Shown here in pieces: positions 10,798 to 36,116 of a stretch of 64,000 nt of DNA. This stretch comes from Sporocytophaga sp. (GTDB lineage Bacteria; Bacteroidota; Bacteroidia; Cytophagales; Cytophagaceae). The notes below the pieces were generated by a model, which did no database searches, was not told the origin of the DNA, and saw nothing but the letters and a program-made list of their open reading frames with translations. The DNA is taken from the NCBI RefSeq assembly GCF_017745095.1, contig NZ_JAGHZZ010000004.1, positions 62,001-126,000 on the forward strand, in the 5' to 3' direction. The translations under genes were made by a program, and so were the position numbers. Positions within the stretch are counted from its first letter, which is position 1; each line of letters starts with the position of its first letter.

Positions 10798-11922
10798 ATG
10801 AACAGCTTCCTCAACGTTTTCGAAAAACATTCATGGGAAGAAGTGAAGGCAAGCATCTATTCTAAAACAGAAGCAGATGTACGCATTGCTTTGAATAAAA
10901 AGAAACGTGATCTTGAAGATTTTAAAGCACTAATATCTCCGTCTGCAGCTCCTTTCCTTGAAGAGATGGCAAAGCTCAGCAGAGAATTGACACTAAAAAG
11001 ATTTGGGAATACGATCCAGATGTTCGTGCCAATGTATCTTTCAAACGAATGTCAGAATATCTGCACCTATTGTGGCTTCAGCCTTGATAACCCAATGAGG
11101 AGGACGACGCTGTCAGAGAAGCAGATAGATAAAGAAATAGAAGTCATCAAGTCATATGGTTATGATCATATTCTGCTTGTAACAGGCGAAGCAAATAAAA
11201 CTGTTGGTGTTGATTATTTCGAAAAAGCAATCAAACAGATCAGGCCTCATTTTGCAAACATCTCTATGGAGGTGCAGCCTCTGGATCAGGACGAATATGA
11301 GAAGCTTCTTCCTCTTGGTATTCATGGAGTACTGGTTTATCAGGAAACTTATCATGAGGAGAATTATAAATTCCATCATCCTAAAGGAAAAAAATCCAAC
11401 TTCGAATACAGACTTGATACTCCCGATCGATTAGGAAGAGCGGGAGTCCATAAAATTGGGCTTGGTGTGCTTATTGGTCTTGAAGACTGGAGGACGGATT
11501 CATTCTTCAATGCCCTTCATCTCGACTATCTTGAAAAGACTTACTGGAAAACCAAATACAGTGTTTCTTTCCCTCGTCTTCGTCCATATGCAGGCAAAGA
11601 GCCGAAGGTAGATATGTCGGATAGAGAGCTTGTTCAATTGATTTGCGCTTATCGAATTTTTAATGAAGAATTGGAGTTGACTATATCAACCAGAGAAAGC
11701 GAGAAGTTTAGAAATAACATTATCAAGCTTGGTATCACCACCGTGAGTGCAGGCTCTAAAACAGATCCGGGTGGATATGCTTCTAATACTGATGCTTTGG
11801 AACAATTCGAAATTTCAGATGAAAGAACACCGCAGGAAGTTGCTTCTATGATTAAAAATCTTGGCTATGAGGTGGTCTGGAAGGATTGGGATCAGGCTTA
11901 TGAAGTTGTAAGTGATAAGTAG
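10798..11922 (+). CDS. thiH: 2-iminoacetate (dehydroglycine) synthase ThiH
   Basis: Radical-SAM tyrosine lyase that supplies dehydroglycine to ThiG in the oxygen-sensitive version of the pathway. The cluster motif CQNICTYC gives Cys85, Cys89 and Cys92. MEVQPLDQDEYEKL and GVLVYQETYHEENY are typical ThiH segments. Length 374 residues. Presence of ThiH, and no ThiO glycine oxidase here, implies the tyrosine-dependent route. The next thiamine-type gene (12499) is separated by a repeat and a small lipoprotein gene. Confidence 0.97.
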   Translation: MNSFLNVFEKHSWEEVKASIYSKTEADVRIALNKKKRDLEDFKALISPSAAPFLEEMAKLSRELTLKRFGNTIQMFVPMYLSNECQNICTYCGFSLDNPMRRTTLSEKQIDKEIEVIKSYGYDHILLVTGEANKTVGVDYFEKAIKQIRPHFANISMEVQPLDQDEYEKLLPLGIHGVLVYQETYHEENYKFHHPKGKKSNFEYRLDTPDRLGRAGVHKIGLGVLIGLEDWRTDSFFNALHLDYLEKTYWKTKYSVSFPRLRPYAGKEPKVDMSDRELVQLICAYRIFNEELELTISTRESEKFRNNIIKLGITTVSAGSKTDPGGYASNTDALEQFEISDERTPQEVASMIKNLGYEVVWKDWDQAYEVVSDK

Positions 11923-11933
11923 TAAGTTTTAAG

Positions 11934-11968
11934 AAAGCTGAAAGCGTAAAGCACAAAGCTTAAAGTAC
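11934..11968. repeat. Heptamer repeat, five 7-bp units
   Basis: Directly after thiH, five heptamers AAAGNNN run in strict 7-bp register: AAAGCTG, AAAGCGT, AAAGCAC, AAAGCTT, AAAGTAC. The same heptamer family makes up the larger element at 34453-34649, which suggests a dispersed repeat family. Confidence 0.6.
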
Positions 11969-32817: not shown

Positions 32818-34461
32818 ATGATTTCAGTTGACGGACTTACTGTAGCTTTTGGCGGCAGAACACTTTTCAGCGATGTTACTTTCAATATCAATGAGAATGA
32901 CAGAATAGCCCTTATGGGTAAAAATGGTGCCGGTAAATCTACCATGTTAAAAATTATTGCTGGCGTTGATAAACCCACTAAAGGAAAAATTACTGCGCCC
33001 AATGGAGCTGTCATTGCTTATCTACCTCAGCACTTGCTATTGGATGATGATAGTACTGTTTTTGAAGAAACTTCAAAGGCATTTGCTTCTATCCTTAATA
33101 TGAAAAAGGAAATCGATGCATTGAACAAGGAGCTTGAAACAAGAACAGACTACGAATCTGAAGAATATTATAAAATTATTGAACGTGTCTCTGAAGTCAG
33201 TGAACAGTATTATTCTATAGAAGAAATCAATTTCGACGCTGAAGTTGAAAAGACTTTGCTCGGATTAGGGTTTGTGAGAGAAAACTTCACAAGACCTACA
33301 AGCGAATTCAGCGGTGGATGGCGTATGCGTATCGAGCTTGCAAAAATATTATTGCAAACTCCTGATCTTATTTTGCTCGATGAGCCTACCAACCACTTGG
33401 ATATAGAATCTATCCAATGGCTGGAGGATTTTCTCGTAAACAGCGCAAAAGCTGTAATTGTAATTTCTCACGATAGAGCTTTCGTTGATAATATTACTAA
33501 CCGCACCATTGAAGTAACAATGGGGCGAATTTATGATTACAAAACAAACTATTCTCATTACCTGCAATTGCGAGAAGAGCGTCGTCAGCATCAGCAGAAG
33601 GCATTTGACGAGCAACAAAGGTTTATTGCAGAAACTACCGAATTCATAGATCGTTTTAAAGGCACATATTCAAAAACGCTTCAAGTGCAGTCTCGAGTCA
33701 AAATGCTTGAAAAGCTGGAGCCTATTGAGGTGGATGAAGTTGATACTTCAGCTTTGAATCTTAAATTTCCTCCGGCACCTCGTTCAGGTAACTATCCTGT
33801 AATAGCTAGTGAGTTGGGGAAAACTTATGGCGATCATGTTGTTTTCAAAGATGCTTCCTTTACTATTGAAAGAGGTCAGAAGCTTGCCTTTGTTGGGAAA
33901 AACGGAGAGGGTAAATCAACCATGATAAAGGCTATCATGGGAGAAATTGATTTTGATGGAAAACTGGAAGTTGGCCATAATGCAATGATAGGTTACTTTG
34001 CCCAGAATCAGGCATCTTTACTTGACGAAGAACTGACAGTGTTCCAGACTATCGACAATATTGCTGTTGGTGATATCAGGACTAAAATCAGAGATATTCT
34101 AGGCGCTTTCATGTTTGGTGGAGATGCTTCTGCAAAGAAGGTTAAGGTATTGTCAGGAGGAGAAAAGACAAGGCTTGCAATGATTAAATTGCTTTTAGAG
34201 CCAGTTAATCTTCTGATCCTCGATGAGCCTACCAACCACCTGGATATGAAAACCAAAGATATCCTTAAAGAAGCGCTATTGGCATTCGATGGCACCATCA
34301 TACTTGTTTCTCACGACAGAGATTTCCTGAGTGGTTTGGCTACAAAGGTTTTTGAATTCGGAAACAAAAGAGTGAAAGAACATTTCGAAGATATCAACGG
34401 GTTCCTGAGAAATAAGAAGATGGAGAACCTGCGAGAGATTGAAAGAAAGCAAAAAGCTTAA
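32818..34461 (+). CDS. ABC-F family ATPase
   Basis: A 547-residue soluble twin-ATPase of the ABC-F type, which acts on the ribosome rather than as a transporter. The first domain has GKNGAGKST (35-43), EFSGGWRMR and LILLDEPTNHLD; a charged linker (LREERRQHQQKAFDEQQRF) follows; the second has GKNGEGKST, LSGGEKTRL and LILDEPTNHLDMKT. The subfamily (EttA, Uup or YbiT-like) cannot be settled by eye; the linker and length favour YbiT/EttF-type. Translation factor or resistance role is possible. The stop codon lies inside the start of the heptamer repeat. Confidence 0.9.
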   Translation: MISVDGLTVAFGGRTLFSDVTFNINENDRIALMGKNGAGKSTMLKIIAGVDKPTKGKITAPNGAVIAYLPQHLLLDDDSTVFEETSKAFASILNMKKEIDALNKELETRTDYESEEYYKIIERVSEVSEQYYSIEEINFDAEVEKTLLGLGFVRENFTRPTSEFSGGWRMRIELAKILLQTPDLILLDEPTNHLDIESIQWLEDFLVNSAKAVIVISHDRAFVDNITNRTIEVTMGRIYDYKTNYSHYLQLREERRQHQQKAFDEQQRFIAETTEFIDRFKGTYSKTLQVQSRVKMLEKLEPIEVDEVDTSALNLKFPPAPRSGNYPVIASELGKTYGDHVVFKDASFTIERGQKLAFVGKNGEGKSTMIKAIMGEIDFDGKLEVGHNAMIGYFAQNQASLLDEELTVFQTIDNIAVGDIRTKIRDILGAFMFGGDASAKKVKVLSGGEKTRLAMIKLLLEPVNLLILDEPTNHLDMKTKDILKEALLAFDGTIILVSHDRDFLSGLATKVFEFGNKRVKEHFEDINGFLRNKKMENLREIERKQKA

Positions 34462-34649
34462 AGCTTAAAGTTGAAAGCTTAAAGTTCAAAGTGAGAAAGG
34501 AAGTTAATAGCTTTGTACTTTATACTTTCAGCTTTCTTTGTATAGAAAATGCAAATAAGTATAAAATATTAAGTATAAAATATTAAGTATAAAGTTTAAA
34601 GTGGGAAAAGCAGGTTATAAACTTTCAGCTTTCAGCTTTTAGCTTTTAA
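34453..34649. repeat. Alternating heptamer repeat element between the ABC-F gene and pheS
   Basis: Six AAAGNNN heptamers (34453-34494; mostly AAAGCTT/AAAGTTG), four CTTTNNN (34511-34538; CTTTGTA, CTTTATA, CTTTCAG, CTTTCTT), two and a half 14-bp units AAGTATAAAATATT (34557-34590), two AAAGNNN (34591-34604) and four CTTTNNN (34622-34649; CTTTCAG, CTTTCAG, CTTTTAG, CTTTTAA). Blocks are in strict 7-bp register and alternate orientation, so two long hairpins can form. A short relative sits at 11934. Confidence 0.75.
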
Positions 34650-34660
34650 CTCAACAAAGT

Positions 34661-35686
34661 ATGTTAGATAAGATAAAAGGCGTTTCGGAAGAAATAGAGC
34701 AATTTCAGATAGATACTAAAGATAGTCTTGAGAAATTCAGACTAACGTTTGTAAGTAAAAAAGGTAAGGTTACAGAATTATTTGACCTCCTGAAACAAGT
34801 GCCCAATGAAGAAAAGAGAGCAATGGGTGCAGAGCTGAATGTTCTAAAAAATGCGGCACAGGCTAAGCTTATGCACTTTACAGAAGTGTTTGAACAGGCA
34901 GCTTCACAAAACGCTTCTTCTGGAAAAGATCTTACTCTGCCTGGAATTCCTGATCAGAATGGAACCCGTCACCCACTTTCTATGGTGCGTGAAGAAATTA
35001 TCCAGATATTTGAGCGTATGGGTTTCAACCTTTCTGAAGGTCCTGAAATTGAAGATGACTGGCATAACTTTACTGCCCTGAATTTCCCTCTGAACCACCC
35101 AGCCAGAGAAATGCAGGATACTTTCTTCATTGAAAAAAATCCTGACATCGCTTTAAGAACACATACTTCTTCTGTGCAAGTGAGGGTAATGGAAAATCAG
35201 AAACCTCCAATCAGAACTTTATCTCCGGGAAGGGTATATAGAAACGAAGCCATATCTGCCAGAGCACATTGCGTGTTTCATCAGGTAGAAGGTTTATATA
35301 TAGATGAAAATGTAAGCTTTGCTGATCTTAAGCAAACACTTTATCACTTTGTGAAAGAGATGTTCGGAAAAGATACTAAACTAAGATTCAGACCTTCATT
35401 CTTCCCTTTCACTGAGCCAAGCGCAGAGATTGATATCAGCTGTTTAATCTGCAAGGGTGAAGGCTGCAATATCTGTAAGCATTCAGGCTGGGTAGAAATC
35501 GGTGGTTCAGGAATGGTAGACCCCAACGTACTTGAAAACTCAAAGATAGATTCTAAAAAATATTCAGGTTATGCTTTCGGTATGGGTATTGAAAGAATTA
35601 CCATGCTTAAATACCAGATCAAAGATCTTCGTTTGTTCACTGAGAATGATGTGAGGTTTTTGAAGCAGTTTACCTTTTTAGGTTAA
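34661..35686 (+). CDS. pheS: Phenylalanine-tRNA ligase alpha subunit
   Basis: The catalytic subunit that charges tRNA-Phe. The N-terminal coiled helix (MLDKIKGVSEEIEQF) is followed by the class II core: HPLSMVREEIIQIFERMGF, RTHTSSVQVRVM (motif 2 region), GRVYRNEAISARAHCVFHQVEG and FRPSFFPFTEPSAEIDISC with GFGM-like AFGMGIERITML at motif 3. Length 341 residues, full. pheT is not in the window. A terminator follows. Confidence 0.97.
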   Translation: MLDKIKGVSEEIEQFQIDTKDSLEKFRLTFVSKKGKVTELFDLLKQVPNEEKRAMGAELNVLKNAAQAKLMHFTEVFEQAASQNASSGKDLTLPGIPDQNGTRHPLSMVREEIIQIFERMGFNLSEGPEIEDDWHNFTALNFPLNHPAREMQDTFFIEKNPDIALRTHTSSVQVRVMENQKPPIRTLSPGRVYRNEAISARAHCVFHQVEGLYIDENVSFADLKQTLYHFVKEMFGKDTKLRFRPSFFPFTEPSAEIDISCLICKGEGCNICKHSGWVEIGGSGMVDPNVLENSKIDSKKYSGYAFGMGIERITMLKYQIKDLRLFTENDVRFLKQFTFLG

Positions 35687-35801: not shown

Positions 35802-36116
35802 AGTTTAAAATTCATTTCTTTAGCTAAAATACCAAGTCTATTGCCTTCAATTTTTATTCTATTAGCCTGAAAATTGATTCTAAAAGTGTCAAAATTCAGG
35901 CTTCGGCCTTGAATTTTCGAGTGAAAAGAGTCAATATTCGGTGATGGAAACTAAATTTTAGGGCAAAAGGACTGAGATTTCAGTAAGAAAGAGTCAAGTT
36001 AAAGGTTAAAAGAGCCAAAATTTGAGCAAAGAGAACCAATATTTGGGTAAAAAGACTCAATTTTTGAGCAAAAAGAGGAAATATTGAGCGAATTTGACTC
36101 AAATTTAAATTTCTGA
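35802..36116. repeat. Degenerate 21-bp tandem repeat array with phased A-tracts
   Basis: At least 11 units (35886-36116) keep exactly 21-bp register without a single indel visible at unit borders, and weaker units extend left to about 35802, some 15 units in all. A reading of the consensus is GASTCAAWATTTGAGCAAAAA. Units are highly diverged: compare GACTCAATTTTTGAGCAAAA (36054-36073) with GAGTCAATATTCGGTGATGG (35928-35947). Each strong unit is nearly palindromic at TCAAATATTTGA and ends in an A-tract. The array lies between the pheS terminator and the emrE terminator and has no open frame in any direction. Confidence 0.7.

Follow-up and report, generated by a model that had tools for sequence, protein, structure and literature searches.

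Intergenic heptamer arrays have already been noticed in unrelated bacteria, with no known role, and polymerase slippage or G-quadruplexes are discussed as causes in the accessible text of PMC4692102 and PMC4679880. The nearest relatives of the arrays analysed here are those of Xanthomonas and Nostoc. As far as the accessible parts of PMC4692102 report, two Xanthomonas genomes contain 186 and 183 dispersed, mostly intergenic patterns of the heptamer GGGAATC/GGGANTN. These are mostly four units long and partly degenerate, and include 70 and 75 facing inverted pairs. Few are located between divergent ORFs, they are linked to no functional gene class, and their flanks change more than the repeats. 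The Nostoc repeat is GGGGA(C/T)T. Sites are mostly shared with varying sequence, and the authors leave the role open. The AAAGYNN arrays described below are also dispersed, intergenic units in 7-bp tandem, with the same strand-and-side preference, preference for four units and facing inverted pairs. The Xanthomonas and Nostoc core, however, is G-rich, and G-quadruplexes have been proposed for it, whereas the AAAG arrays contain no G-tract. The same grammar without a G-tract points to a cause other than G-quadruplexes. A per-position comparison with neutral sites was not found in the accessible text of PMC4692102.

Likenesses to other systems are partial. TAACTGA direct repeats, known from Beggiatoaceae, Cyanobacteria and some Bacteroidetes, are likewise intergenic and numerous, but consist of one fixed heptamer and lie mostly just upstream of start codons in the best-studied genome (PMC4679880, accessible part). 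The parS heptads of pSM19035 are bound by the RHH protein Omega, and full activity needs at least four contiguous units (PMC9499535, accessible part). These are contiguous, non-palindromic 7-bp units in direct or inverted orientation, and AAAG arrays also have at least four contiguous heptads in either orientation (the loci were mostly chosen for at least four). The parS heptads overlap plasmid promoters and have the consensus WATCACW, which AAAG arrays do not fit. REP/BIME elements, as described in the accessible part of PMC3733652, are dispersed, often paired in opposite orientation, located downstream of coding regions and able to supply a stop codon. They are GTAG- or CGTC-tagged palindromes of 20–40 bp, whereas AAAG arrays have only a core of four to five bases at 7-bp pitch and no conserved palindromic unit. 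Like our arrays, the P6b stem of the Nostoc trnL intron has degenerate heptamers (in its case TDNGATT and NNTGAGT), gain and loss by seven bases and replacement of classes, but it lies inside a group I intron and is paired as a stem (PMC4476775, accessible part). No description of AAAGYNN arrays was found in the literature searched; as far as these searches show, what is new is the family itself, the fact that it has no G-tract, and the measurement of a constrained core beside last letters that behave neutrally.

The window, a stretch of 64,000 nucleotides (C44:62001-126000 of the 6.63-Mb genome G000), contains such an element between an ABC-F ATPase gene (32818-34461, plus strand) and pheS (34661-35686, plus strand). 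The stop-side array, AAAGN3 x7 (34446-34491, plus), begins inside the last ABC-F codons. It is faced by CTTTN3 x4 (34511-34535), that is, AAAG on the minus strand. Then follow 2.7 copies of the 14-bp unit AAGTATAAAATATT, equal to two degenerate heptads (about 34556-34593, plus), AAAGN3 x2 (34591-34601, plus), which is the left arm of a second, weaker hairpin, and the start-side array CTTTN3 x4 (34622-34646, minus), which ends 15 bp before pheS. An earlier note had described ordered heptamer blocks of switching orientation that start in the last ABC-F codons and end just before pheS. This is borne out, except that the first block has seven units instead of six. The strict 7-bp register claimed for the whole element is perfect within each block but does not extend across blocks, which start in four different phases (6, 1, 4 and 0 modulo 7). 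Runs of at least four units did not occur in 60 simulations under an order-3 Markov model of the window. A 21-bp tandem repeat (3.3 copies, 36008-36076) lies downstream of pheS.

Three other genomes of the genus were compared: G016, a closer species, and the congeneric species G017 and G018. At the pheS site, the element is common to the window and G018, where it has extra units and fewer copies of the 14-bp unit; it is degenerate in G017, and a 1.36-kb spacer without the element is found in G016. The number of units thus varies between related species. PheS has its closest named relatives in Cytophagales (best 74% identity). In G018, pheS was matched as two overlapping pieces, one with a TGA, indicating a frameshift or an assembly error (G018:C9:969766-970789). 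A second array in the window, TAAG-type heptads followed by AAAGN3 x5 (11903-11965, plus), lies where a radical-SAM/BATS gene (10798-11922) ends. It can be made out at the corresponding site in G017 and, in degenerate form, in G016 and G018.

The element next to pheS is one of a family: G000 has dozens of such short arrays, which start at gene boundaries and have AAAG every seven bases. A genome-wide scan, as proposed earlier, revealed 159 places with AAAGN3 x4 (80 forward and 79 reverse; windows of one run are counted apart, so that places partly overlap), compared with one for the reversed control pattern. AAAGN3 x5 occurs at 65 places (control 0). The three other species have 92, 217 and 283 places (controls 0, 11 and 4). 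In the order, 42 of 291 genomes have a match, the four of the genus among them. Six other genomes were looked at among the matches listed: the places are mostly homogeneous microsatellites in G145, G256, G247 and G265, for example (AAAGCTA)n, (AAAGCCA)n or (AAAGTTC)n, while G009 and G078 have degenerate arrays, which face each other in several of the eight loci examined. The reversed control itself, GAAANNY every 7 bp, is abundant in G020 (66 + 94 places), G150, G156 and G008, and is perhaps another heptamer family.

The unit has the consensus AAAG-Y-N-N. About 95% of units have C or T at position 5, about half have T at position 6, and about a tenth have C at position 7. Neighbouring units agree in Y more often than expected (0.68 versus 0.54, reached by 0 of 500 permutations); L148 and L213 were left out here, as in the six-genome test of facing pairs. 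In the 131 runs of at least four units from G000 and G016, T follows the last AAAG in 98, and TAAGCTG precedes 11. Strict runs have four units in 34 of 89 cases, five in 33 and more in 9, a sharp fall beyond five; three-unit runs are under-counted because the loci were mostly chosen for four units.

Placement was studied in about 640 kb of G000, mostly regions picked for arrays, where the positions of 92 runs with three or more units were compared with those of called genes; four-unit loci came from the first ~100 of the 159 places, and later contigs were reached via the five-unit list. Gene boundaries are those of a home-made hexamer caller, and L148, L150 and within-gene runs were left out of the counts of distances and spacers. 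Outside called genes, allowing a 30-bp overlap with gene ends, lie 87 of the 92 runs, and 5 are within genes. Behind its AAAG end, a run has a stop codon as gene boundary in 55 of the 87 cases and a start in 32, some of the latter being misassigned by the caller (L117:4122 and L165:4014 are at or in gene ends). No missed sense ORF of convincing score ends near the 32 start-side runs, the best being 84 aa at L112. The 5' end of the run is within 35 bp of a stop in 49 of the 87 runs, the 3' end in none. These 49 are among the 55 stop-side runs and start −21 to +35 bp from the stop codon, most commonly at 5 bp (9/55), as when a TAA stop itself starts a T-variant heptad. Ahead of the runs, the nearest boundary is 42 bp away. 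The rule is that AAAG reads away from the adjacent gene. It is a simpler account of the orientation switch, and the AAAG/CTTT 'hairpin' results from facing arrays that each point away from their own gene.

The spacers that hold elements were compared with all 117 spacers longer than 60 bp of a 224-kb block. Those between convergent genes are enriched in elements (22 of 55 elements versus 17 of 117 spacers; p 4e-4). Codirectional spacers account for 28 of 55 versus 75 of 117, and divergent ones for 5 of 55 versus 25 of 117 (p 0.054). Neighbouring genes include folK, fabD, htpG, argG, argB, recG, gldN and those for aspartate carbamoyltransferase and pyrophosphatase; no functional theme was seen among those scanned (22 of 49 stop-side genes, pheS and the L148 gene).

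Two loci are set apart from this picture. At L148 (3894-5396), the 3' part of a gene holds long AAAG arrays, which are read as a Lys/Glu/Ser-rich tail; the gene has no Pfam match at 1e-4. L150 (4086-4601, G000 C6) contains three tandem Y RNA-like (YrlA) matches with 37, 34 and 28 bits, below the Rfam gathering score of 69. They lie near RNA-repair genes (RlaP, Hen1_L), heptad arrays are located in front of the first two copies, and G016 has the first copy in almost the same form. Because Rfam matched Y RNA, another interpretation of L150, a permuted tRNA, was abandoned.

We compared 131 gap-free units between G000 and G016. The letters A-A-A-G had changed in 6.9, 3.1, 5.3 and 3.1% of units, rates biased low because most G016 loci were chosen for having runs. 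Y had changed in 16.8% and each N in 29.8%, compared with 30.9% of four-fold sites (8335/26984). L148, with its array in a coding region, and the pheS pair, with a spacer over 900 bp, were left out. Core change, with the same bias, was alike on both sides (13/308 stop-side, 9/200 start-side), a result not readily expected of an element that works only in the 3' UTR; Y had changed in 9/77 and 13/50, respectively.

A test free of this bias started from 12 G000 gene ends with arrays of at least five units, whose orthologous ends in G017 and G018 were located by gene sequence alone. Of 24 possible ends 21 were found (one duplicate row was dropped), and 17 of these hold at least three units. Neutral decay, simulated with four-fold rates of 0.426 for G017 and 0.408 for G018, leaves a mean of 0.1 of 21 and never more than 3 in 1000 simulations, while a core changing at a tenth of the neutral rate leaves 16.9 of 21. 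The background is 4 of 501 gene ends with an array in syntenic blocks of the four genomes. No run was found at L133 in G017 or at L161 in G018. At L149, L128 and L161 in G017, the units differ almost wholly from those of G000 as judged by eye, but core and register persist. An alignment guided by the variable letters gave identities of 0.64 for AAAG, 0.67 for NN and 0.72 for Y in 21 pairs (0.54, 0.61 and 0.60 for non-orthologous arrays); it was not used for rates as it fell off register where units were replaced. These sequence comparisons show site, core and register to be conserved, with the last two letters drifting freely. As the AAAG beat is kept while the intervening letters drift, the arrays probably do something.

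How units arise is a separate matter. Among 20 indels touching arrays, 10 are of 7, 14 or 21 bp, compared with 6 of 138 outside arrays; units thus come and go by sevens. This, the 14-bp duplication in the window and the homogeneous arrays elsewhere in the order would suit neutral heptamer microsatellites made by polymerase slippage, with a polymerase footprint that favours heptamers (a hypothesis quoted in the accessible text of PMC4692102 and PMC4679880). Adjacent units, however, are identical in 6.4% of cases and random units from different arrays in 6.5%, so that units are not recognisably copied from their neighbours and slippage alone does not maintain the arrays. The correlation at position 5, the only one between neighbours, and the 8.5% identity of units two apart (n=236) leave room for some copying. 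New units may come from slippage, but the strict orientation relative to genes and conservation of site, core and register far beyond neutral contradict it as the sole cause, and we regard this account as very improbable. Hardly more probable is a mobile or selfish element of the REP/BIME kind, dispersed by insertion next to stop codons and with the heptads as its ends. The high copy number, the inverted pairs, the preference for 3' ends, the lower number in divergent spacers, the occasional wholesale replacement of arrays and the missing pheS array in G016 would agree with it. Yet no shared body or loop was seen among the 59 clusters examined, and the 17 of 21 sites are common to different species. 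Around Y1 transposases, 1 of 16 loci (ten genomes) has a three-unit run, with 1 of 8 G000 matches covered.

An action at the RNA level deserves more attention, either as a 3' UTR AAAGYNN tract bound by an RNA-binding protein or as a ladder hairpin with the facing CTTT tract that protects or processes the mRNA end. The sense orientation at stops and the enrichment in convergent spacers favour it, and so does folding. The earlier note had proposed one or two hairpins, and the RNA of 34440-34660 indeed folds with −54.1 kcal/mol (z −3.8, a value that none of 200 shuffles reaches); taken by itself, the first hairpin stands out (z −3.3), but the second does not (z −1.0, 26 of 200 shuffles as good). 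Whole element, first hairpin, L149 and L151 range from z −3.3 to −3.9, while the single-arm L126 has z −1.1. Opposite the 42 stop-side arrays of at least four units there is a run of at least three units in 24 cases, a run of two in 6 and none in 12; among 364 array-free gene ends, 28 have such a run ahead. Over 81 facing pairs of six genomes, complementarity of the variable letters is in weak excess (equalled by 3 of 200 shuffles; 24 of 200 for 32 pairs with loops under 60, 19 of 200 for 49 with longer loops). Among 43 pairs of G000 and G016, the best match was reached by 43 and the mean unit similarity by 24 of 500 partner shuffles. The 21 short-loop pairs of other genomes are matched by 4 of 200 shuffles, whereas 11 G000 pairs with loops under 60 show no excess (191 of 200 shuffles do as well). 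Non-complementary short-loop arms in G000 and the partnerless arrays indicate that the hairpin is not the conserved feature, and the idea that the fold is the point of the element was not upheld. Its unlikeness to ordinary terminators did hold: between 34300 and 34800, no intrinsic terminator, with its G+C-rich hairpin and a T run behind it, was found. Rfam covariance models gave no match to the same stretch up to E 1. With a home-made finder, a terminator-like hairpin is present within 180 bp at 19 of the 47 gene ends that have an array and at 93 of the 222 other ends; this similar frequency does not support the array as a terminator substitute. Where such a hairpin exists, the array sits between stop and hairpin, whose median position is 59 at array ends and 26 at others, a shift that again favours an RNA element. 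Considering the similarly constrained start-side arrays, we think an RNA element rather unlikely.

Constraint on the core alike on stop and start sides, arrays without partner and weak complementarity lead us to rank recognition of duplex DNA above RNA structure, with modest confidence. We tentatively propose that selection maintains the arrays as rows of 7-bp recognition sites (AAAG plus pyrimidine), which adjoin one another at gene boundaries and to which a protein most likely binds cooperatively, as duplex DNA. The protein would read the array with one heptad per protomer or dimer. A precedent for cooperative heptad binding is Omega at the parS of pSM19035 (PMC9499535). Arrays flanking a spacer would face each other, each pointing away from its own gene, and the bound protein might cap or bridge the spacer. 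A spacer capped or bridged in this way could insulate a transcription unit's 3' end from the unit that follows. Simple drift of binding sites does not explain the orthologous arrays that look replaced wholesale in G017.

Gene-boundary heptad arrays might even recur among bacterial genomes, with letters that differ by lineage (GGGAATC in Xanthomonas, a similar heptamer in Nostoc, AAAGYNN in this family) but a common grammar of seven-base pitch, four to five units and reading away from the gene. Each lineage would then have its own heptad-reading nucleoid or insulator protein capping transcription units. We consider this generalization doubtful. Array retention fits a core that changes at roughly a tenth of the neutral rate beside two neutral last letters, which makes a function testable. 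The AAAG family follows the same placement rule without a G-tract, and it supplies a bait sequence for finding the putative reader.
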